Shown: piece after piece, positions 39,628 through 52,789 of the stretch | Numbering within the stretch: position 1 is the first letter of the stretch | How the letters are laid out: every line of letters begins with the position of its first letter | Assembly (NCBI GenBank): GCA_030431255.1 | Contig: JAUIJL010000027.1 | Span: 1 to 64,000, forward strand | DNA: 64,000 nt | Source of the DNA: Thermoanaerobaculia bacterium | GTDB lineage: Bacteria; Acidobacteriota; Thermoanaerobaculia; Multivoradales; J023 | Direction: 5' to 3' | The notes under the pieces: generated by a model | Databases searched by the model: none | What the model saw: the letters and a program-made list of their open reading frames with translations, nothing else | What the model was told of the DNA's origin: nothing | Position numbers and translations under genes: made by a program

Positions 39628-40053
39628 ATGACCCACCTCGCCGCTTGGACCCTAGCCACCATCCTCGCCACCCTCAGCGGCCTGCACGTCTACTGGGCCT
39701 TCGGCGGCAAAGCAGCCCTCGAAGGCACCCTGCCCCGCATCGAAGGCAGCGAAGAAGCCCTCTTCCGTCCCGGCCCCCTAGCCACCCTAATCGTCGCCGG
39801 CATCCTCGCCTTTGGTGTCACCCTCACCCTCTGGCGAGCCGGCATCGTCGAGCCGGCCGTCCCCGCGTGGATCCCCCGCACCGGTTTGTGGTTCATGGCC
39901 GTCGCCTTTGCCTTGAGGGCGATCGGTAACTTCAAATACGTCGGTTTCTTCAAAAAACCCAGCGAGTCCACCTTTGCCCTTCGGGATAGCCGAATCTATT
40001 CACCCCTGTGTGTGGTGATCGCGGTTTTGTCGGTGGTGGTTGGGTTGGGGTGA
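39628..40053 (+). CDS. DUF3995 small membrane protein
   Basis: A 141-residue integral membrane protein with four hydrophobic helices. The first helix reads AAWTLATILATLSGLHVYWAFGG, whose HVYWAFGG end is the hallmark of the DUF3995 family. Further helices are LATLIVAGILAFGVTLTL, RTGLWFMAVAFALRAIGN and SPLCVVIAVLSVVVGL. The ATG at 39628 is chosen because homology starts there; an in-frame start at 39415 would add an implausible Cys-rich leader. Function unknown. It lies upstream of the IS66 insertion. Confidence 0.8.
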   Translation: MTHLAAWTLATILATLSGLHVYWAFGGKAALEGTLPRIEGSEEALFRPGPLATLIVAGILAFGVTLTLWRAGIVEPAVPAWIPRTGLWFMAVAFALRAIGNFKYVGFFKKPSESTFALRDSRIYSPLCVVIAVLSVVVGLG

Positions 40054-40229
40054 GCTTCCTTGCCGCCAGGTGTTCTGTTAAGCTGCCAGAACAGTAAAAA
40101 ACAGGAAGCCTCTCTGTCTGTCTGTCACACGCAGAAGCTCGGGGGTGTAGGCTTGGTGTGCTATGCCGAATCGTAAGCGTTCGGCAAACCCCACCCCATG
40201 AGCAGGATCCAGCCGCGGAGTGACCCCGG

Positions 40230-41765
40230 CTACTTCGAGGTCAGATTGGACGTGAGACCGTTCTCGGCGGCCCAGGCCAGCGGCGAAAGCTCCAGCAGAC
40301 GATCTGCCGGTCGGCTGGGCAGGCGCTCGAAAAGCCAGCCCAAGTAGGCATAAGGATCCCAGCCGTGGTAGCGGCAGGTTCCCACCAGACTGTACATGCC
40401 CGCCGCGCGACGGCCCCCGGCGTCGTTACCCGCGAACAGCCAGTTCTTCCGCCCCACGGCGATCAGGCGAAGCATCCGTTCCGATCGGCCGTTGTCGATG
40501 TCCAGTCGACCGTCTTCGGTGTATCGGCACAGTGCGTCCCATTAGTTGGTGACGTACGTCAAGGCCTTGCCCAACGGGCTCTTGGGCAGCACGGTGTGCC
40601 GGTGTTTTTCCATCCATGTCTTCATGGCGTCGAGCACGGGCACGGCCTTTTCTCGACGCAGGGCGAGCCGTTGGTCGGGAGAAAAGTCTTTCGCCGCTTT
40701 CTCGAATCGAAACAGCTCGCGGATCATCGCCAAGGCCTCCAAAGGCAAGCCTTTGTCTTTGAGTGAGGCCTCGTAGAAATATCTTCGGGCATGCATCCAG
40801 CACCCGACCTCTTGAATTCGGGGTGAGCGATCGGGCTTGAAGAGCTGGTCGTAACCGGAATAGGCGTCGGCTTGGAGGTAGCCGCCGTAGGATTCGAGAA
40901 ATGTCCTCGGCGCCTCTCCTTCTCGGGTCGGCGAATAGTCGTAGAGCACCAGCGGATGGTCGAGATCGCCGAGATAGACCCACAGTCGACCGGAATAGGC
41001 GCCGCCCTTTTTCTGCACCGGCACGGTGGTGTCGTCGGTGGCGACGACGGCGGAGTGGAACAGCTCCTTTTTGAGGGCTCCGAGCAAGCCTTCGACCCGC
41101 TCGCTGCATTCCTTGACCCATCCACAAAGGGTCGTTTTAGGAATCTCGACGCCTTGGCGCCGCAGGATGCCTTCCATGCGGTGCAGCGGAATATGGTCGC
41201 AGTATTTGGAGACCACGACATGGGCCAAGAGGCCCGGGCCGGGCAGACCCTTTTCCACCATCTGGGGAGGCTTGGTGGAGCTGACGATCTTCTCGTCGCA
41301 ACCTTTTCGGCAACCGTAGACGAAAGTGACGTTTTCAATCACCTCGAACGACGCTGGTTTGTAGTCGATTTGCTCGTGAATTTCTTCACGAATGGCCGGC
41401 ATCACCTCGTCGCAGCATGGGCAGATACGCTCTTCGTCGGGCAGAGGATGCTCCACCCGGCGCCGAGGCAGCTCTTTGCTCGGGCGTTTGCGTTTGGCGC
41501 GACGTCGCGGCTTGGTCGGGACCTCGTCCTTCTCAGGCTCGGCCGGGGTGGGAGCTTCGAGACCCAAAGCCTCGAAATCGATCAAAGCGAGTTGGTTCGG
41601 ATCGAGCTTTTCCGTCTTGCGCCCGAACAATTTTCGCGCCAGCTCGTCCACCTTGGCCTGCAACGATTCCTCCCGTCGCTGAGACTTTCTCAGCTCGGCG
41701 AAAAGCTCGCGCACCAAGGGCTTGAGCAGCGCGGGATCGTCGGGGATGGAAGTGGGCTCGACCAT
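40230..41765 (-). pseudogene. tnpC: IS66 transposase TnpC with an in-frame stop
   Basis: Full length would be 511 residues, normal for IS66 TnpC. It has the N-terminal coiled coil (ELRKSQRREESLQAKVDELARKLFGRKTEKL), a zinc-binding CPCC, and DDE elements TDDTTVP and QADAYSGYD. A TAA at 40542-40544 interrupts it after ...YVTN. The downstream frame WDALCRYTEDGRLDIDNGRSERMLRLIAVGRKNWLFAG continues the family sequence and holds the third acidic residue (Glu at 40479-40481). The truncated 407-residue product therefore lacks the catalytic Glu. A C-to-T change in CAA would explain it. The element is probably immobile unless the stop is read through. Confidence 0.9.
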
Positions 41766-41814
41766 GATTTCGACCCCCGAAATCTATCACTTCGAGCCCG
41801 TTTTATAAACCTTT

Positions 41815-42159
41815 TCAGGCCACTTTTCGGCGCCATCTCGGGCGTCTTCGAGCCCCTCGCAAATCGATCCCCTCCAACAGTAACGCCAGCTCCGCCGCCT
41901 CCACTTCCGTGGCCTTCCCGGAGCCGTCCGGAAATCGAAACGTTCCCTTTTCGAGACGTTTGTACCAAAGCGCGAACCCGGACCGATCCCAGAACAAGAT
42001 CTTCACTCGATCGGCCCGCTTGTTGCGGAACACGAACAGATGGCCGGAGAACGGATCCCGCTCCAGAATGTGCTGTACGCGGGCCGTCAAGCCGTCGAAG
42101 GCGCACCGCATGTCGGCCGGCTCGGTGGCGATGAACACTCGGACCGAAGGTGGGAGCAT
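41815..42159 (-). CDS. tnpB: IS66 accessory protein TnpB
   Basis: A 114-residue IS66 Orf2 protein: [67 protein letters not shown] is the family signature. It is needed with TnpC for transposition. Its ATG overlaps the tnpA stop by one base (TGATG), so the two are translationally coupled. The C-terminal Arg-rich tail is common in the family. Confidence 0.95.
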
Positions 42160-42515
42160 CAGCACGAGCCGGCCACCTGCAACGCCCACAACACCTCCGC
42201 CAGCTCTCGCCCCTGGATCCGCGAAGGCAGCTTCAGCCGAAGGCCGTTGGGGAAAACCAGCTCGAACCCGTCTTCGTCCGACGCTTCCGGAACCGCAGCC
42301 GCCGAGGTTTGGACTTCGACGAATTTCACCTCGCTCGTCGCCTCCTCGGAGGTCCCGTGGAGGCGACGACGCCAGGAATAGAAGGTGGAGACGGGCAGAT
42401 CGTTGCGTCGGCAGAATTCCGACGGCGAAAGGCCACTGTTCTTCTGAGCCAGAAACGTCCGCCGCCAAAACGCCGCTCCACGCCTTCGTCGAGTCTTGTG
42501 TAGATCCTGAGTCAT
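42159..42515 (-). CDS. tnpA: IS66 accessory protein TnpA
   Basis: A 118-residue small helix-turn-helix protein of IS66: [37 protein letters not shown] is the DNA-binding part, followed by a beta-rich domain ([16 protein letters not shown]...ELAEVLWAL). It is the first gene of the tnpA-B-C transcript. Its ATG lies 69 bp inside the right terminal repeat end of the element. Confidence 0.93.
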
Positions 42516-44118
42516 GGTTACCTCCGACCCGGATCATCGCGGACTGTTGGCTCTGAAGGAAGGTGGGGTTTGCCGAACGCTTACGCCGAATCTGACTCTA
42601 GAAAGAAAAAAAGCTATCAAAGAGCCGCGATTCCGTACGGATTCGGAGCGAGAGGTTTTGCGTGTGCTCTGGGCGCATCAAGATCAAGGGTTGGTCCGAA
42701 GCCAGATCTATCATCGAATGGCATTGCCTCCTAAAGAGCGCCCGACCACCCATCGAATCGGTCAGATCCTCAAGATGTTCCATATTCATGATTACCTCGA
42801 TCGTGAGATCGACCGTTTTCAGGGCACGAAAAGAGCTGCCTTTTATCGACTTAACCCCAAAGGAAAACAGGCCTGTCGGGAGCGTTATAGATTCGATAAT
42901 CAGGATCAGGCTTTGTTTCACGTGACCGACGGCGTGCGGCGCAAATACCTTACGGCCGAAAACTTTGATGGTAGCCCGGAGGCGCAGCCACAGCGAGTGA
43001 TTGGTTTCTACTCCTACAGTCCGGGTCTCGACCAAGCTGTGATGGTGGCTCATACTGCCAGTGCCCTCGCTCGTCAGGCTAAAGAAAAAGAAATTTTGGT
43101 GATAGATCTCGACTTCGAGACGCCTGAGCTGGATCGTTTCTTCGCAACTTCGACGGGCGAATCGAATCGTTGTTTTCGAAGGCTGCTCACGGATTATTTG
43201 AGACAGCCGGACTGGCGAAAAGAGCAATGGCTTCAAGAAGCGGTCAATGAAAGCTCTTACACCTTCCTTGCACGGCCTGAGAGATTTTCTAATCTTCATT
43301 TTCTGCGAAGCGGCATGAAGGAAAGTCTTGAAGATCCAACTGTTGCCGTAGAACGTGGGTCAGTTTTGGATCATCTGAAAGCGGAGCTAAAAGCTGCAAC
43401 TGGAGATGACTCTCAATCTGGAGAAGCCTGCTTTCTGCAGCAATTCCGATCTGCTCTCTTAGATCGGTATGACCTTGTTCTCGTGTGCTCGCAATCGGGA
43501 CGATCCGTCGGTGCTTTGGCGATGATCCAGCTTGTGGACCAGTTGGTTTTGAATGCTCACGCTACTGAAAGTCAGCCTACCCTAGGGGGCTTAAGGGCAG
43601 TTGCCGCATGGTTCTTGCGCGCAAAGCGAGCGGCTCGGCAGATCCATCCAGGAATTATCATGGCTTTGCACCTTTCGGAATACAGTAGCGGGGCTTTCGA
43701 TGGCATCGGATGGCTACGTGACAAAATTCTATGCCCCGTGGGTGAGGGACCGTTGCCCGAGAAGTCTCCCTGGATTCTGAGATACAACCGCCTGCTCGAC
43801 ACCCCCACGAATTGGCGTGCGACCAAGGTCTTCGTCCCGTTCGCAAAACGACTGCTGGACCCTCAAGACCAACAAGATCCGATGCATCCGGTGGTCAAAG
43901 CAGTAGACACGTTGCTGAACCCGAACGCGCAGATGGACTACCGCACTATGATGGCTGCTAGTCTGGAGAATGCCGACTTCGGAACCTTCAGCCAATCCGT
44001 CAACGCTTGGCTGGGTGACGAAGAGTTCGAGCAGCGAACCGACGAGGCTGGGTTGGAGATGCTCAAAGAAGTCTTCGATCAGCAGCAACGGAAGATCTTC
44101 GCGAAGTTGGGAGGATAG
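42514..44118 (+). CDS. Winged-helix/ParA-like protein with lost P-loop; 5' end split off by IS66
   Basis: The frame reads out of the IS66 right end into a ~510-residue host protein. Removing the IS and one target copy restores ATG CCG AAT CTG at 40163, in frame, so the IS separated the start codon from the gene. Any product now needs a new start, for example the IS-internal ATG at 42514 or a later TTG. Residues ~45-125 are a winged helix ([25 protein letters not shown]...[10 protein letters not shown]). Then [25 protein letters not shown]...[13 protein letters not shown] aligns with the FYSYKGGVGRT ParA/MinD-like NTPases, but the Lys/Gly of the P-loop is gone. The Shine-Dalgarno of the next gene lies within its last codons, suggesting an operon with the histidine kinase. 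Confidence 0.75.
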
Positions 44119-44120
44119 CT

Positions 44121-46721
44121 TTGGCGATATTCGCCCTTTTCCAAGAAAATATTGATGTTGAAGGCCTTTTCCTTAAATCGTTGGTCGACATCGAAAACGC
44201 CGCTCTCGAACAGAAGGGCGTTTTCGACCTTTTGGGTGCGTGCTGCCGAGTCTTGGCTCAGTTGCCCGGGCTCTCCGGGGCCACCATCGCGGCGACCGAC
44301 GGTCACGGCAGCGTGTTGCACCATCTTTCGAGCGGTACCGACTTTCTGTTGAGCAGCAACGCCTTCGAGAATCTCCGGCGGCTTCGCGACGTCTCCCAAG
44401 CGCTACGCGATGGAGCCTGGGCCGAGCTACCCGCTGGCTCGAGCATGCAGCAGGCCACCTCCGGCCGGCTTCTCTCGTTGCACGGCAAAGAATACGGCAT
44501 GGTGTTTTTGCAGAGCGAATCGACGGGCAGATCTGGCGATGAACAAAGGAAAGTCGCAGCATCCCGCGAGATCGTCACCAAACTGGCGCCGCATTTGGCC
44601 AAGCATATCAAGCTGGGTTTGACCCGAAGGGAGCGCCGTCTCCATCGGGGCCTTCAAAAATTCGCCACAGTCGAATTAACCCCCAAAGTCCCGAGCCCAA
44701 AACAAATCGTCGAGAGCTTGTCGGAGCTCTTCGAGGCCGACAGCTGCACACTCTTCGTCCAAGAGCTCGACAAGCTCTACCTTTCCGCCACCAACGATCC
44801 CGACGTAGAGTCCAACCCCTTCAAACATGCATCCGGACAAGGTCTGACGGATCTTGTGGCGCGAACCGGCAGGGCTGTACAAATCTTCGATACGGCTGAT
44901 GCTGAAGAAGTTGAGGAGGCCACAGGCCTGAGCGAAGAGGCCGCACGGCCGTCGGCTGAGAAGGCGGCCCTATTCTCAAAATCGCTTCACCTCCTCGCCA
45001 TCCCCCTCTATTCATTCAACCCCGAAGCGGAAGAAGCGGCACCTGAAGGTCATTCCGGGCCCACAGATCTACGCAATGGCGTCTTGTGGATCACCCGCTC
45101 GGGAATGCCCTTTGCCGACTATGAGAAAAAGGCGCTTGCGCACACCTGCGTTGCCCTGGGTTCAGCCTTGGCGAGGGCCTGGAAGATCTTTTTGAGCGAC
45201 AGTTTGTGGAACGCAAGAACGGAAGCGATTGCGGTGTCGCGGTATCAGCCTGGAAGGAAGAAATCTGGAGAAAGGGGAGTTTCCCATCTTGTAGATTTCG
45301 ACAAGGCTGCTTTAGATCTCTTTGGCGGTAGAGAAGAAGAGCTCCGCGGATTGGAAGTGTCTCGGTTGTACCTAAAGTCCGACTACAAGAAACTCAACAA
45401 AGAGTTGGCACTGGCCCGTAAGAACGGAAAGAAGGAACTGGGGCCAGTCGATCTGAAGATTCGCCGCCTAGATGGAACCCTCCGGCCTGCGGCTACCTCC
45501 TACAGGTTGGTCACAAGTCCCTTTGTAGCTACTCCAACCCACTATACTCTGAGTCTGTTGCGAGACACCTCCGCTCGGGAGAAAGTGCTCGCTCAGCACA
45601 AGCGGCTTGTGGAGCTCCTTGACGAACGGGGGATTGCTTATTTTGCCGGGACCAAGGAGGGCACTACCCGTGAATCATCGAAGACTGAGCAACGATTAAC
45701 CGGGTATGACGAGAAAGAAATCTTCGAAATCACACGCGGTGATCTCTATCCCAACATAGAAAATCAGCAAGTTTTGTATCAAAAAGCGGTATACCAAGAT
45801 GGCAAGGTCGTAAAAACGGTTCAAGATCTAAAACGTAAGAGCGGCAGAGTATGCAAAGCGAGTGGCTTCATTCGACTACTGAAGAATGAATTGGGTGAGC
45901 AAGACGGCTTTGAAGGTCTATACGAAGACGCCTCCGATAAAATCAAACTGCAAGAGTTGCTGGATTTGCCCACCAACCGGGTCATTGAAGATAGAGAGCT
46001 ATACGAAAGGTTGAAAGAAAATACGAGACTGAACCTAGATTACATGACAAGCCTTAGCCACCAGATTCGCACTCCTTTGGGAGCGTTGACTCACAATCTG
46101 GAGGAAGCAAAAGGGTGGATTCCCGAGGACTCACCCCTTTGGAAGCAAATGAGCTACCTCATTGGGCAGACCCGGGTCTGTAACATGCTGGCGCAGAACC
46201 TCTCCTATATCGATCGAATTTTGAAGGGAGAGGATTTCAAAAAGGAAAAGATTGATCTAGCGCGCATGCTTATTGAGACTAAATTGGATTTTAAGCATAC
46301 CTTGAAGTCAGAGCGTCTCAAGATGGAAATCGATTCTGAAAGTGTCAACAGGTTTTTTCCAGATTTCGCAGGAAGTCCCGAGTTGTTTAGACAAGTTATA
46401 GTTAACTTGGTGGATAACGCAATCAAATATTCAAAACCTGGGACGACAATCGAAATTGTTGGCAGCACTGGAAGGTATTCGAGCAATCTCAACATCTCCA
46501 ATATCGGCATCCCAATAGCTCTCAGCGAGAGATCTTCGATATTTGAACGGGGGTATCGAAATTCAGTGGCCGCGGCTTCGAAGGATGGAACAGGTCTGGG
46601 GCTCTGGATTGTCAAAAAGATCGTGGATCTTCACTATTGTTCGATCTCTTGCTCCTCTGAAACAAATGCCGAACATAGTCCTATGGAGAAGGTGACGTTC
46701 CAACTGACGTTTGATGCCTAG
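44121..46721 (+). CDS. GAF/PAS sensor histidine kinase
   Basis: An 866-residue cytoplasmic kinase; no membrane helix is visible. It starts at TTG 44121 with GGGAGG upstream, two bases after the stop of the preceding gene. Two GAF-like regions occupy roughly 30-170 and 185-355, two PAS-like regions about 365-480 and 490-605. The H-box SLSHQIRTPLGAL carries His647. The ATPase domain shows the N-box LFRQVIVNLVDNAIKYS, and IFERGYRNS...DGTGLGLWIVKKIV for the F and G2 boxes. The signal is probably intracellular. It is followed 21 bp later by a receiver protein, its likely phosphate acceptor. Confidence 0.9.
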   Translation: MAIFALFQENIDVEGLFLKSLVDIENAALEQKGVFDLLGACCRVLAQLPGLSGATIAATDGHGSVLHHLSSGTDFLLSSNAFENLRRLRDVSQALRDGAWAELPAGSSMQQATSGRLLSLHGKEYGMVFLQSESTGRSGDEQRKVAASREIVTKLAPHLAKHIKLGLTRRERRLHRGLQKFATVELTPKVPSPKQIVESLSELFEADSCTLFVQELDKLYLSATNDPDVESNPFKHASGQGLTDLVARTGRAVQIFDTADAEEVEEATGLSEEAARPSAEKAALFSKSLHLLAIPLYSFNPEAEEAAPEGHSGPTDLRNGVLWITRSGMPFADYEKKALAHTCVALGSALARAWKIFLSDSLWNARTEAIAVSRYQPGRKKSGERGVSHLVDFDKAALDLFGGREEELRGLEVSRLYLKSDYKKLNKELALARKNGKKELGPVDLKIRRLDGTLRPAATSYRLVTSPFVATPTHYTLSLLRDTSAREKVLAQHKRLVELLDERGIAYFAGTKEGTTRESSKTEQRLTGYDEKEIFEITRGDLYPNIENQQVLYQKAVYQDGKVVKTVQDLKRKSGRVCKASGFIRLLKNELGEQDGFEGLYEDASDKIKLQELLDLPTNRVIEDRELYERLKENTRLNLDYMTSLSHQIRTPLGALTHNLEEAKGWIPEDSPLWKQMSYLIGQTRVCNMLAQNLSYIDRILKGEDFKKEKIDLARMLIETKLDFKHTLKSERLKMEIDSESVNRFFPDFAGSPELFRQVIVNLVDNAIKYSKPGTTIEIVGSTGRYSSNLNISNIGIPIALSERSSIFERGYRNSVAAASKDGTGLGLWIVKKIVDLHYCSISCSSETNAEHSPMEKVTFQLTFDA

Positions 46722-46742
46722 ATTGAAGTCGAAAGAGTATTT

Positions 46743-47183
46743 ATGACGCAAAAGAAAGTTTTCATTGTCGACGATAGGAGTCGAGAGATAGAGTGGCTAA
46801 CTCAATTCCTGAAGAATGACCTCGATTGTAAGTTGATCCATAAAGACAACGAAATGGATACTCGTGCGCATTTCCGAGAGTTTGCAGATGACAAGTTGAC
46901 GCCTTATTCACTAGCTATAGTTGACATAATGATACCTGTAGCGAAGCTTGAGGATTTGGTGGTTTTGGACGAAAGGTACTTGAAAGACTCTCGCGATACC
47001 GGTGTGCGGATCTGTAAATATATTCGCCACAAGCTTCGGATCAATGAGGAGGAGTTGCCTCTGATGGCAATATCAGCCCGGGCCGACAACGAACTCTCTC
47101 GCCAGCTCGACGAGCTGAGAGTGCCTCTGTTCAGTCGGGATGACCTTGGGATCAAAGATCATCTGAGAAAGATCCTCCAATAG
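46743..47183 (+). CDS. Single-domain response regulator
   Basis: A 146-residue receiver. The acidic pocket is KVFIVDDRS (Asp10/Asp11) and the phospho-acceptor is Asp61 in SLAIVDIMIP. The conserved Thr/Ser follows in MAISAR, while the expected Lys near the end is not obvious (VPLFSRDDLG). An insertion of ~20 residues after the acceptor (VAKLEDLVVLDERYLKDSRDTG) is unusual. There is no output domain, so it probably works through protein contact or as a phosphate relay. It is co-transcribed with the kinase. Its stop is 7 bp from the stop of the opposing diguanylate cyclase gene. Confidence 0.85.
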   Translation: MTQKKVFIVDDRSREIEWLTQFLKNDLDCKLIHKDNEMDTRAHFREFADDKLTPYSLAIVDIMIPVAKLEDLVVLDERYLKDSRDTGVRICKYIRHKLRINEEELPLMAISARADNELSRQLDELRVPLFSRDDLGIKDHLRKILQ

Positions 47184-47190
47184 CGAATCA

Positions 47191-49236
47191 CTAGTCCGCA
47201 ACCGTCACGCGATTCCTTCCGGCCTGCTTCGATTTGTACAACGCCCTGTCGATTCGCTCAATGATCTGCTTGAGAGACTCATTGGAATGAAAGACGTGGG
47301 TAATGCCAGCCGAAATGGTCATATTGATCTCCTGCCGACCATGCTCGGTTTCGACGAGTATGGGAGTTTTCTCGACGTCTTGCCGTAGACCCTCGGCGTG
47401 CCTTAGCGCGAGGCCTTTAGTTCTTTCCATCGACAGAATTACCATCTCGTCTCCGCCCCATCGAACGGCGTGATCGCTTTTTCTTCGATAGCGTTCCTTG
47501 ATCATGGAGCCCAGCTGCTGAAGAGCGCGATCGCCGGCAGGGTGGCCGTAACGGTCGTTGATCTCCTTGAAATGGTCGATATCCATCAGGAGCAACGAAG
47601 GCTTGTGGCGAGACTTAGCGGCTTCTCGCAAGGCTGCCTCCACCTTTTTTTCGGCCGAGCTTCTAGTCAGCAGGCCGGTTAGACCGTCGATCTCTGCTTC
47701 TGCGAGCTGTCCTTGGAGCTTTTCGAGCGCTTGTTGGGCTTCTTCCAGCTTGGCTTGGTTGGCTTTTCGGAAGAATAGGAAAGCAATGGGTGATCCGACC
47801 ACAAGCATCAGCAGAACAAGACTAATCTCCGGCTCCGGGAGAACCCACACTTCGAGCTTAAAGTCTCGCGACCTATTGCCGTATTCGTCCATGACGAAGA
47901 AGGAGCGTGAATTATGCCACAGCTCAAGCTCAAGAGTCCTACCACACTGGTAGTCTGAATGTTTGATTTGTGTTGACTGGTCATCATAAGCACAGGCATG
48001 GAAACGGCCATTGGCTTGATCGAATGACACAGGCGGGGAACCGGAATACTCTGGTTCTAATTCAAGGAAACGCTGAAACTGAACGCCGCCCCCCTTCGTG
48101 GCGACTTGAATCCCAGAGTCCGCAACCCACCGAAACAACCCTTGATCGGCAGCAACCCATAAGTTGTCTTGAAAGACGACTGCATCGGTGGCACTTAATT
48201 TTCCCCCAACGGGCGACATCTCGAAGTCGAATTCCGGGCCAGCTCCACGCAGCAACCCCTGCGTGGTTGCCAACCACAGCATTGAATCTCGCACGAAAGC
48301 GAGTCGAACCGGGTGATCAGTCGGCACAAGCTCGGCTTTTCCGCCATGGAGAATCCCCAAACCGCTTCTGGTGGCGAAAACGGGAGAGCCCTCATATTCA
48401 CTAATCCAGCTGACCCTCCAGTCGGAGGTGCTGGGCGGAACCTCAGCTCTACCGTCGGCTATCAAATAGGCCTTTCCTGGCCAATCGAATCTGGGGTCTC
48501 CGATAGTCGTAGTCCAGATAGCACCGCCGCTTCGCTCGATGCTCTTGCTTGGGGGTGCCACTGCTGGGCCAGGGGATGGTCTACTCTTGGCGGCCCCAAT
48601 ACCTACCACTTTGATGTTGTCCCAGCCAATGAACTCAACACTCTTGAGTCGTACAAAGTCTGGCGTCCCAGCGGTGATTCGAAATGCACCTTGAGCGCTC
48701 GCGACCCATAGGTCTGCTCCGATAGCTTCGAGATCAAAGACTTGGAGTCTGTGGCGTGGGTTCTCTTCCCCCAAAACGAATAGACCCTGTTGGGTGCCGA
48801 TCCATAAGCGTTCTTCAAAGACCGAAAGGGAGGTAACACCGGCATGGATGATAAACTCGGGCTCTGCTTCTCCTAGCCGAACGAGGCCGTTCGTGGTTCC
48901 AACATAGGTGTTGCCTTCGAAACTGATGACTGACGTTGCGCGGACTTCGCCTAGAACCAACGTCGGTTTGTCATCGTCTCTTAGGCGATACAGGTTTCTC
49001 TTCCCAAGAATCCATAGGTCTGATCCAGCGACTTCTAGGCGGTTGATCGCTTCTTTCGAAGCAAGCTGAGGGAGCAACACGTCGGCTCTTGTAATGGAAA
49101 CGGACGCAGAGAAGAAATAATAGATTAGCGCCGAGAATACCATCAATAGCGAGCGACTACAGGTGAAGGTCAGTGGGCCCGACCCCCGCTTTTCTGCGCC
49201 ATTATTCAGTCTAGATGCTTCCAAAAACTTGATCAT
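47191..49236 (-). CDS. Propeller-receptor diguanylate cyclase (GGDEM variant)
   Basis: A 681-residue membrane sensor. A signal-anchor (LLMVFSALIYYFFSASVSI) exports a ~420-residue beta-propeller with blades such as LWILGKRNLYRLRDDD, LWIGTQQGLFVLGEEN and LWVAADQGLFRWVADSG, like the sensor part of hybrid two-component proteins. A Y_Y_Y-like region and a transmembrane helix (ISLVLLMLVVGSPIAFLFF) follow, then a coiled coil and a GGDEF domain: DGLTGLLTR, MDIDHFKEINDRYGHPAGD, and WGGDEMVIL (594-598). The fifth signature residue is Met instead of Phe, which some active cyclases tolerate. It would make c-di-GMP in response to an outside cue. The 51380-52789 gene is a close copy of its sensor half. Confidence 0.9.
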   Translation of the reverse strand: MIKFLEASRLNNGAEKRGSGPLTFTCSRSLLMVFSALIYYFFSASVSITRADVLLPQLASKEAINRLEVAGSDLWILGKRNLYRLRDDDKPTLVLGEVRATSVISFEGNTYVGTTNGLVRLGEAEPEFIIHAGVTSLSVFEERLWIGTQQGLFVLGEENPRHRLQVFDLEAIGADLWVASAQGAFRITAGTPDFVRLKSVEFIGWDNIKVVGIGAAKSRPSPGPAVAPPSKSIERSGGAIWTTTIGDPRFDWPGKAYLIADGRAEVPPSTSDWRVSWISEYEGSPVFATRSGLGILHGGKAELVPTDHPVRLAFVRDSMLWLATTQGLLRGAGPEFDFEMSPVGGKLSATDAVVFQDNLWVAADQGLFRWVADSGIQVATKGGGVQFQRFLELEPEYSGSPPVSFDQANGRFHACAYDDQSTQIKHSDYQCGRTLELELWHNSRSFFVMDEYGNRSRDFKLEVWVLPEPEISLVLLMLVVGSPIAFLFFRKANQAKLEEAQQALEKLQGQLAEAEIDGLTGLLTRSSAEKKVEAALREAAKSRHKPSLLLMDIDHFKEINDRYGHPAGDRALQQLGSMIKERYRRKSDHAVRWGGDEMVILSMERTKGLALRHAEGLRQDVEKTPILVETEHGRQEINMTISAGITHVFHSNESLKQIIERIDRALYKSKQAGRNRVTVAD

Positions 49237-49273
49237 TTAAGACTCGTTCTGTTTCGATCAACGACTCGTCTAT

Positions 49274-49765
49274 TCACACATCTCTCTCGGAAACGCCGGC
49301 TAGCGCCATTGCAAGTCCCAGGACGAGGAGAGGTGCCGACATCAAGGGAGGTAAGTGGTCGAGGTATCCCCCCAGACCCGTGCCAAAAACTGCAGAACCC
49401 AGGCTCAGCAGACAGATTGAGATTTTCGATTTCATTGAGGGCTTGACCTTTAAGTGAAGACTATAAATCACTGGAATCTCGGAGGCGTTTGCGTTGGCCG
49501 ATATTAGTATATTCTGCACATAGCTCGAAGCTCGAGTCCCGATTTTTTCCAAGGCCTTACGGGCCACCGGTTTCTCTGAATCCAGGTAGAACTCGACGGG
49601 ATCGCCTCCTAGAGCTTCTTCATTTTCGTCGACAGCGACAAGAATAAGGCGGATTCTGCCCTTTCCGCGGAGCCCAATCACCTCAGGCCTGGTTTGCTCT
49701 CTGAGTAATCTGGGCTGAGACACTCCATACTCTTTCGGTTCTTGTTGATCCATTGCAGTTGACAT
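49274..49765 (-). CDS. Membrane protein with two C-terminal helices, unknown
   Basis: A 163-residue protein I cannot assign. The ATG at 49765 follows GAGAGGGG. The N-terminal ~115 residues are soluble with a beta-rich region (KGRIRLILVAVDENEEALGGDPVEFYLD...YVQNILISANANASEIPVIYSLHLKV), and two helices close the chain (KISICLLSLGSAVFGTGLGGYL, LMSAPLLVLGLAMALAGV). It is 37 bp upstream of the cyclase gene on the same strand, so an operon and a partnership with that sensor are likely. Confidence 0.65.
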   Translation of the reverse strand: MSTAMDQQEPKEYGVSQPRLLREQTRPEVIGLRGKGRIRLILVAVDENEEALGGDPVEFYLDSEKPVARKALEKIGTRASSYVQNILISANANASEIPVIYSLHLKVKPSMKSKISICLLSLGSAVFGTGLGGYLDHLPPLMSAPLLVLGLAMALAGVSERDV

Positions 49766-49938
49766 TTGAAAATCCCCTCTCGGCTGGTCAAGTGGCAATT
49801 CACGTAACAACCTTAGTGCCCAAACCCTCGACCAGCCACCCTGAAACAGGAAGTAACGGGAATATTCAATAGAGAGCAACAGGAAAATTTCGCTGGAGTC
49901 GTTTGATTACTTTGGGTACATGGCCAGGACATTGCCTT

Positions 49939-51273
49939 CTAGTAAGGGATCTGCCGCTGTAGAATCTGCTTACACTTGTGTTGCGAGAGGGGACCTTGTC
50001 TTTCTAAGAACCGCGCTCGGTGCGGCTGCCACCTAAGACAGTCTTTTGCGAGCAAATCATCTCCAGGCGGACATCCCTCCGGCACTCCCTCGTCAAGCAG
50101 AGGGTCCCATGGGAGCTCTTTCCAGTGAATTGGTGGATCCATTCCATCGGGCAGGATTACCGCAGCCCCGCAGGTTTGCTCTAGTTGATGAGGTTCTAGG
50201 CTCTCTGCTCCGCTGAGATCCGCTCCGTAGAGCCATGCTCCGGACAAGTTAGAGTTTCCGAGATCCACATTTTTCAGAAACTTTGCATTTCTGAGATCCG
50301 CACACTGCAGTTGGGCATCCCGAAAGCTGACGTCGGAAGCCGAGGTTTCTTGAAAGCTGGCATGGCTCAATCGGGCTCTGGCGAACGTGCTATTTTCGAG
50401 CATGAGGTTTTCGAACCACGTCTTACAGACATTTGCTTCCTCGATCAAAGCGGCGCAATCTGCTTCTTTGCAGCTCTGCTCGGTTTGAATCGCTTCTGCT
50501 TTTGCGTCTGAGAAGTCAAATCCGATTAGATTCCTTTTGTTCTTTTCCTCGGCGACGCCGATAGCCGCTCCACGGAGATCGCTCTCGGCGAAAATCAACT
50601 GATTGCCTTGAATGGTCCTAAGATCCAGACCGACAAGAATAGATTTGGTAAAATCGGCACCTTCCATGTGGGTGCCAGACAGGTCGAGAATTGAAAGATC
50701 CATTCTTGAAAGATCCGGCCTGTGGAGCGTCAACCAAGTGCTGCGATCCTGGCCTGCCAGGCTTCTGGAGAGCTCAAGATAGGTAGAGAGAGCCTGGACG
50801 CGTTTGGCTGGATGAGAACCAGAAATACATCGATCTGTAGGCTGAAGCGCGGGGGTTTCAGACCGAATCTTGCAGTCATAAATTTGTGCCAATAAATCGC
50901 TGTTTGCTGTGTTGAGTAGGCTCTTTGATTGAAGATAGTTAGCTTTCCTCGATTCGAGGAGTTGACCCTGGAGGGTTTCGTTTTGTGAAGCGAGGAAATT
51001 GTTCTGGCTAACCATCGTGACACCCTGCTCAGAAAGAATTCCGTTCTGAAGAAATAGAACCACGACTTCAGCAAGCAAAAGCATCGCAACAATCAACGAC
51101 ACCCAGAATTCGGCATTAGATAGCCCATCGTTTCTGTGATTGGGCGATGGCTGCTTTTCGGCCGGAGAGTAATTGTCTGACGGCGATCCATGAGAGCCAT
51201 CGCTGCACCTAGAAAAAGCAACCAATAGTATGGCCGCGATAGCGAGCAATAGGTTCTGGAGCAGTCTAAGCAT
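49939..51273 (-). CDS. Membrane protein with pentapeptide repeats
   Basis: A 444-residue protein. Two hydrophobic helices occur early (NLLLAIAAILLVAFS and FWVSLIVAMLLLAEVVVLFL), then a coiled coil (NNFLASQNETLQGQLLESRKANYLQSKSLL). The C-terminal half has pentapeptide A(D/N)LXX units: DLSRMDLSILDLSGTHMEGADF, ESDLRGAAIG, ADLRNAKFLKNVDLGNSNLSGAWLYGADLSGAE. Pentapeptide repeats fold as a right-handed beta helix and mediate protein contact. Paired Cys residues near the C-terminus hint at disulfides and so at a periplasmic location. Same strand as its neighbours. Confidence 0.8.
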   Translation of the reverse strand: MLRLLQNLLLAIAAILLVAFSRCSDGSHGSPSDNYSPAEKQPSPNHRNDGLSNAEFWVSLIVAMLLLAEVVVLFLQNGILSEQGVTMVSQNNFLASQNETLQGQLLESRKANYLQSKSLLNTANSDLLAQIYDCKIRSETPALQPTDRCISGSHPAKRVQALSTYLELSRSLAGQDRSTWLTLHRPDLSRMDLSILDLSGTHMEGADFTKSILVGLDLRTIQGNQLIFAESDLRGAAIGVAEEKNKRNLIGFDFSDAKAEAIQTEQSCKEADCAALIEEANVCKTWFENLMLENSTFARARLSHASFQETSASDVSFRDAQLQCADLRNAKFLKNVDLGNSNLSGAWLYGADLSGAESLEPHQLEQTCGAAVILPDGMDPPIHWKELPWDPLLDEGVPEGCPPGDDLLAKDCLRWQPHRARFLERQGPLSQHKCKQILQRQIPY

Positions 51274-51379
51274 CGGTTGGGAATACCATTCTCAACTTGG
51301 TGTGTTTCTGTAGAGAGCTAAGATAACCTGCCATCAGGCAATCACATAGTTGTACTCTATTTCTGAAGGCTATCGCCAC

Positions 51380-52789
51380 TTAGCGCTGTTTCGCTCTGAA
51401 AAGAACAACAAAGATCAGAATCGTCACTCCCGTGGTCAATAGCAAGAATGGAGAGGGAGAAGGCAGGCGAAAAAGTCGAATGCTCTTGGATCTTGTGTTG
51501 CCGTAAGGGTCTAGGAGCAAGACATCGACCGTGCTCCTTCCAAGAGGAAATGGGTAGGCGACGCCGGAAAGATCGCTGCTGATGGTTTGCTCGCTCACTT
51601 TGGCCGGAGAGTTGGTCGGCAAGCCTTCGTAGAAGGGTTGAAGAGCCTTCAGCTCATCACCTTGGACAACAATATTCCACCCAAAAAATGAGCCGGAGTC
51701 TAGGTCGAGCCTGACTTTTGGGTAGTACCGGAATAGACCCTGCTCGGCTGCGATCCAAAGTTTCTTTTGAAAAACCTCCGAATCGTTGCATGATAGGGAG
51801 CCTCCTGCTGTAGATCTTCGAAAGACCGAGTCTCCTAAGGATCCACGCAAGAGCTCTCTGGTGGTACACAGGCCGAGTCGATCACCCCATTTAAAGGCAA
51901 GTTTAACGGGGTGTTCCGTTGATAGAAGCTCGGCCTTTCCGTTGGCTATCTTTCCAAGCCCTTCTCTCGTGGCAAAGAAGAGCTCGTCGCCGATACTCGT
52001 CATCGAAGAAACTTGCCAGTCGTGAGTCCCCAAAGGAGAGTAGGTCTTACCATTCACTACCAGATAGGGGTTCCCAGGCCAATCAAGTTGGAGATTTCTG
52101 AGCGTAGCTAACCATATTTGATTGTCGAGGCGTTCGATGCCCTTGACCGGGACAGGTGTTTTTTCTGCGAAGTCTACAGATTCCAGCGGACGTTTGAGTA
52201 CCGGTTTCGCGCCGTCCCTTCGAGGATCCGGGCCGGCAATGGTGAATGCCCCTTGGACGCTGGCAATCCATAAATCTCCCTCTATCACCTTGAGGTCAAG
52301 GACTTGTAGTCTATGGAGTGGTCGATTTTGCCCCAGAACAAAGAGTCCTCTTTGTGTTCCCACCCACAGGTGTTCTTCGAAGACCTCGAGGGAGGTAATC
52401 GACTCCCCTGGCAAGACGGCGATGGTCTCCTTTCGGCCGAGTCGGAATAAACCAGAGACGGTCCCTATGAATATGTCCTTGCCGAATTTGGTGACGGAAG
52501 TTGCTCGGGCTATTCCTTTCACTGGCTCCGCGGTCTGCTCGGCATCGGTAAGCCGATACAAATTTCTAGATCCAATGATCCAGAGCTTGTCATCAGCCAC
52601 CTCGAGACGGTTAATTTGTTCCTCAGCGGATAGATGAGGAAGGAATACATCGGCATAAAGACCAGACTGCGATCCGAGAAAGATTGCTAGGAAAACCAGC
52701 GTTTTCAATAGCTTCCGCCCCCAAAGAGATCTTTTCTGTTGGGTAAGAAGGAGGGCGAGAGGAGTGCTGCTCATTGCTTGGTTAGGCAA
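51380..52789 (-). CDS. Propeller receptor lacking a GGDEF domain (paralogue of the neighbouring cyclase)
   Basis: A 469-residue protein that matches the sensor half of the 47191-49236 product nearly throughout: signal-anchor, DVFLPHLSAEEQINRLEVADDKLWIIGSRNLYRL, LWVGTQRGLFVLGQNRPLHRLQVLDL, LWIAAEQGLFRYY, and a final membrane helix (FLLLTTGVTILIFVVLFRAKQR). It stops exactly where the paralogue continues into its coiled coil and GGDEF. No remnant GGDEF reading frame follows. It could form heterodimers with the cyclase or act as a decoy or co-receptor (inference). Confidence 0.85.
   Translation of the reverse strand: MPNQAMSSTPLALLLTQQKRSLWGRKLLKTLVFLAIFLGSQSGLYADVFLPHLSAEEQINRLEVADDKLWIIGSRNLYRLTDAEQTAEPVKGIARATSVTKFGKDIFIGTVSGLFRLGRKETIAVLPGESITSLEVFEEHLWVGTQRGLFVLGQNRPLHRLQVLDLKVIEGDLWIASVQGAFTIAGPDPRRDGAKPVLKRPLESVDFAEKTPVPVKGIERLDNQIWLATLRNLQLDWPGNPYLVVNGKTYSPLGTHDWQVSSMTSIGDELFFATREGLGKIANGKAELLSTEHPVKLAFKWGDRLGLCTTRELLRGSLGDSVFRRSTAGGSLSCNDSEVFQKKLWIAAEQGLFRYYPKVRLDLDSGSFFGWNIVVQGDELKALQPFYEGLPTNSPAKVSEQTISSDLSGVAYPFPLGRSTVDVLLLDPYGNTRSKSIRLFRLPSPSPFLLLTTGVTILIFVVLFRAKQR

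Follow-up and report, generated by a model that had tools for sequence, protein, structure and literature searches.

The question raised by this locus is what becomes of a gene, and of the operon that it leads, when an insertion sequence (IS) comes to lie directly behind its start codon. In the stretch of DNA analysed here (64 kb, called the window), an IS66 element of 2,412 bp was delimited by inverted repeats, target duplication and Pfam matches to positions 40173-42584 (40165-42592 counting both target duplications), with its transposase genes on the minus strand. The terminal inverted repeats (left, plus strand, 40173-40195; right, minus strand, 42562-42584) match each other perfectly in 23 of 23 bases and have the ends GTAAGCG; GTAA-type termini are expected of IS66 inverted repeats. 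The 23-base pattern, with up to 3 mismatches allowed, was found at two sites only in the 64 kb, compared with a mean of 0.00 in shuffled sequences (n = 100). The element is bordered by the 8-bp target duplication GCCGAATC, whose left (40165-40172) and right (42585-42592) copies are identical in 8 of 8 bases. Encoded on the minus strand are tnpA (42159-42515, 118 aa; HTH_Tnp_1, 3.6e-05), tnpB (41815-42159, 114 aa; TnpB_IS66, 5.4e-37) and tnpC (40230-41765), and the IS66 transposase model NF033517 was matched with 306.7 bits against a cut-off of 180.

In tnpC, codon 407 is followed by a premature in-frame stop, and this copy does not encode a complete DDE transposase. Downstream of the stop fall DDE-profile positions 240-284 together with the C-terminal element, and both the profile end and this element can still be recognised there; the final catalytic residue is presumably lost past the stop. 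Because of this stop, the window copy is probably unable to move by itself. The genome (G000), a draft of 10,192,622 bases in 54 contigs, contains a second full copy on contig C32 with its own 8-bp duplication, TCCCATTC; there tnpC is open (511 aa), and this copy might supply transposase protein to the one in the window. The two copies are 91-92% identical to each other, and the last 85 bp of their right ends are the same. The C32 copy (L015, C32:117500-122800) interrupts an ORF of 455 aa, the stop codon of which is provided by the repeat end.

When the flanks are joined without the IS, they read TAG GCT TGG TGT GCT ATG CCG AAT CTG ACT CTA, a frame that continues into the gene at 42586-44118 on the plus strand (gene 1, counted from its second codon). 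The ATG stands at 40163-40165 (plus strand), and its G (40165) is the first base of the left GCCGAATC. The first-pass annotation had placed the IS66 inside a start codon, had named the G of the ATG as the first base of the target duplication and had predicted that deletion of the element and of one 8-bp copy restores ATG CCG AAT CTG in frame. The last two statements were borne out and the insertion is indeed at the ATG, but the codon itself is whole to the left of the IS and has been cut off from codon 2. The left flank retains ATG CCG AAT C and then enters the IS, which gives a peptide of 12 codons and a stop within the IS.

An in-frame TAG lies five codons 5' of ATG 40163 with no start codon between them, and between this TAG and TTG 42658 the joined frame contains no ATG, GTG or TTG besides ATG 40163. 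Counted over the 510 codons that follow the ATG, TTG 42658 corresponds to residue 25 and falls inside a predicted helix (residues 19-30, helix 1 of the winged helix), and the similarity to relatives begins upstream of it (R-x-R-x3-E-x-E-x-L-R-V-L-W). Since no other in-frame start precedes 42658 and the similarity to relatives starts before it, ATG 40163 is, by elimination, the best candidate for the ancestral start of gene 1. Its best predicted ribosome-binding match (-12.3 kcal/mol) lies about 14 bases off, which is farther than ideal; this and all further binding energies are predicted pairings with an assumed 16S tail, and the ribosome-site model is of the E. coli type. That the IS has parted gene 1 from its only plausible native start is well supported.

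Gene 1 is followed on the plus strand by a sensor histidine kinase (gene 2, 44121-46721; HATPase_c, 1.9e-14, 54.5 bits against a cut-off of 26.4) and a receiver-like protein (gene 3, 46743-47183; Response_reg, E 0.01, below the cut-off). For the gene 1 product itself, alignments to profiles and relatives together with a structural model predict a winged helix and a ParA/MinD-like region that has lost its P-loop: the P-loop site (window positions 43018-43062) reads SPGLDQAV versus SGGLGRTT and SGGLGRST in the relatives from genomes G003 and G006, and the DLDF motif is intact despite this loss. No Pfam match was found for gene 1, and a sequence search of the PDB gave weak matches, the best being BceF (E 0.0012) and MinD (0.045). 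The AlphaFold model was poor (mean pLDDT 43.3; about 58-84 locally in helix 1) and, given this, no fold search was made. With PADLOC, matches were either weak or confined to the shared kinase domain (PDC-M28B, 9e-06; PDC-M43B, 8.8e-15), and no defence role is claimed. The G+C content is 0.44-0.58 per kb at 42600-52000 compared with a window mean of 0.598, and because the IS sits at the left edge of this low stretch, the operon may be part of an acquired island. In the same stretch, 47191-49236 encodes a GGDEF protein, and the protein encoded at 51380-52789 is 43% identical to its N-terminal part.

The arrangement of a winged-helix gene (with or without the ParA-like region), a kinase and a receiver was found at five places, spread over three genomes of a single family: in the window (42586-47183), twice more in the same genome (C7, L021; C32, L022) and once each in G003 (C67, L019) and G006 (C437, L020). 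None of the four cassettes outside the window has an IS in or between its genes in the stretches taken, the G006 gene 1 being cut by the contig start. By ORF ends, the spacing between gene 1 and the kinase is 2 bases in the window, 1 in C32, 18 in C7 and 28 in G003, and the two ORFs overlap by 20 bases in G006. The relatives support a three-gene operon, and the earlier claim that the first gene of the operon had been decapitated is upheld in that its start is separated from its body and in that it is the first of a conserved three-gene cassette. Common to the cassettes are the winged helix, a kinase of the GAF/PAS type and a divergent receiver; the two paralogous cassettes of G000 have no ParA-like region, and both are preceded by a gene for 527-556 aa (L021 6847-8430; L022 3426-5096) with a sub-threshold match to CN_hydrolase.

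When 98 genomes were searched with the gene 1 protein, 6 gave matches, strong ones only in G000, G003 and G006, and a scan of genome contigs with gene 1 matched 20 stretches, 0 of them relatives. The same scan with a kinase alignment returned two relatives among 48 stretches, both of them Acidobacteriota MAG contigs already found as G003 and G006. Kinase matches were obtained in 40 of 40 genomes because the domain is widespread, with the five places far above the rest. The receiver alignment matched 44 of 396 genomes of the phylum (best score outside G000, 32.6 bits); G003 and G006 are absent from these 44 and presumably lie outside the sample. A genome of the same genus (G001) gave no match to gene 1, to the receiver or to the left-neighbour DUF3995 gene, and an IS-free allele of the window locus was not found in the genomes and contigs searched. 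The closest relatives of gene 1 are about 30% identical and have a different N-terminal tail; in G003 the tail is longer, the shared block being preceded by about 40 residues, and the gene has a good ribosome site. Because of this low identity, they neither confirm nor refute the exact start of gene 1.

The explanation that we favour, and hold to be likely, is that a standard IS66 insertion split the ATG from gene 1, most likely with silencing or reduced expression of that gene as the result. As the junctions show, transposition with staggered cuts 8 bases apart, starting from the G of the ATG, put the IS between this codon and codon 2. The native translation signals now lead into the short peptide that ends in the IS. 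The remainder of gene 1 stays open, and its frame coincides by chance with an open one in the outermost 71 bases of the element, a part with neither a good ribosome-binding site nor a recognisable outward promoter. A low-level product of gene 1 might still arise from an ATG in the IS or from the internal TTG 42658 or GTG 42664, the internal starts cutting into the winged helix. The kinase has a strong predicted ribosome-binding site of its own (-10.2 kcal/mol) and would be translatable from any transcript that reaches it. As an event, this is an ordinary kind of disruption with an elegant junction.

It could also be argued that the IS rescues the gene by offering a fresh start codon along with an outward promoter, with a protein of 534 aa (24 new residues) and the kinase depending on IS-borne transcription; we consider this unlikely. 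A plus-strand ATG is, indeed, present at 42514-42516, 71 bases from the IS end and in frame, and it opens an ORF of 534 aa that runs through gene 1. Furthermore, gene 1 is open over 510 codons, and since its identity relative to that of the kinase (30.3/34.0% between the window and G003) is in the same ratio as in the IS-free pair G003-G006 (60.1/67.9%), there is no excess divergence and no sign of decay, which would fit either a recent insertion or a retained function. However, because the last 85 bp are identical in the C32 copy, ATG 42514 is a fixed feature of the IS end, where it shares bases with the start codon of tnpA (42513-42515, opposite strand). In both copies each phase of this end can be read from a start codon (TTG in phase 0, GTG in phase 1, ATG or TTG in phase 2), so that after any insertion in the same orientation the gene body would follow some start codon in frame, and an ATG in one of three phases. 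An in-frame start was therefore to be expected and is weak evidence of rescue. Predicted ribosome binding at 42514 is also poor (-4.1 kcal/mol, compared with -10.9 for tnpA and -10.7 for tnpC), which is not decisive against translation since the receiver (-2.6 kcal/mol) and the gene at 47191-49236 (-2.5 kcal/mol) have weak sites, too. Thus, the replacement ATG named in the first-pass annotation exists and is in frame, but it is a constant part of an IS end open in all phases and is poorly placed for ribosomes.

A strict promoter scan of 39900-42800 gave 0 sites (0.4 expected) with an E. coli-type model, from which the rules of the host may differ. With a relaxed matrix, likewise of the E. coli type and possibly not that of the host, scores were ranked against those of 1,500 stretches of 180 bases drawn at random from the window; the highest-scoring outward site in the right end of the IS reached the 30th percentile and the native region upstream of gene 1 the 56th. 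Because the models are E. coli-type, the missing outward promoter is weak evidence. Nevertheless, the suggestion that the downstream kinase may depend on IS-borne transcription found no backing, with neither scan recognising an outward promoter in the IS end and tnpA reading opposite to the operon; as a shown fact, this dependence was rejected. The kinase has its own ribosome-binding site. Rescue of gene 1 together with IS-driven expression of the kinase is possible but unsupported. Going further, the gene could have adopted the IS end as its new 5' end, with the operon being expressed with an IS-fused, P-loop-less regulator of 534 aa, a frozen rewiring that would be kept because the window copy cannot make a whole transposase itself; this we regard as quite improbable.

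A true start inside gene 1, at TTG 42658 or GTG 42664, would leave the IS in a 5' untranslated region and the protein whole. Of the in-frame starts listed in the first 75 codons from 42514, these two are predicted to bind the ribosome best (-6.7 and -7.0 kcal/mol), and just upstream of them a promoter-like site in the 87th percentile of the relaxed E. coli-type matrix starts at 42592, where the duplication ends, and otherwise consists of host DNA. The similarity to relatives reaches further upstream, however, and half of the predicted helix 1 would be removed; for these reasons an internal codon was rejected as ancestral start, and a protein left whole in this way is quite unlikely. Finally, that an assembly artefact joined the IS to this locus is barely credible and was rejected: the genome is a draft, but the two full copies differ in sequence and each has a perfect duplication of its own.

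With the separation of gene 1 from its start as the preferred reading, the locus provides a clean case in which the only thing lost through an insertion is the connection of the start codon to the gene body, and a limited search of open-access literature revealed no title describing an IS66 element that separates a gene from its start codon in this way. It also cautions against taking an in-frame start in an IS end as a sign of rescue: where each phase opens from some start, such evidence is weak. The less-described part is the operon behind the IS, a small, lineage-restricted signalling cassette.

Elements named in the cited excerpts as activating their neighbours via outward or hybrid promoters are IS5, IS3, IS21, IS256 and IS1 (PMC3281130, PMC8764528). 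Like these, the window IS66 adjoins the 5' end of an operon; unlike them, it has no recognisable outward promoter, and IS66 is not among the elements named in those excerpts. The gene 1 product resembles the KGGVGR-motif variant AAA ATPase (NCBIfam NF047398), which is matched by residues 161-363 (1.3e-12, 48.4 bits), but it differs in scoring below the cut-off of 90 and in having lost P-loop residues. The element itself is unlike the family standard in the premature stop in tnpC, which bears on the activity of the IS and not on its IS66 membership; with the family it shares tnpA, tnpB (PF05717), tnpC (PF03050), the inverted repeats and the duplication of 8 bp, a length also given for the IS66 elements ISPpa5a and ISPpa7 in the cited part of PMC3281130.
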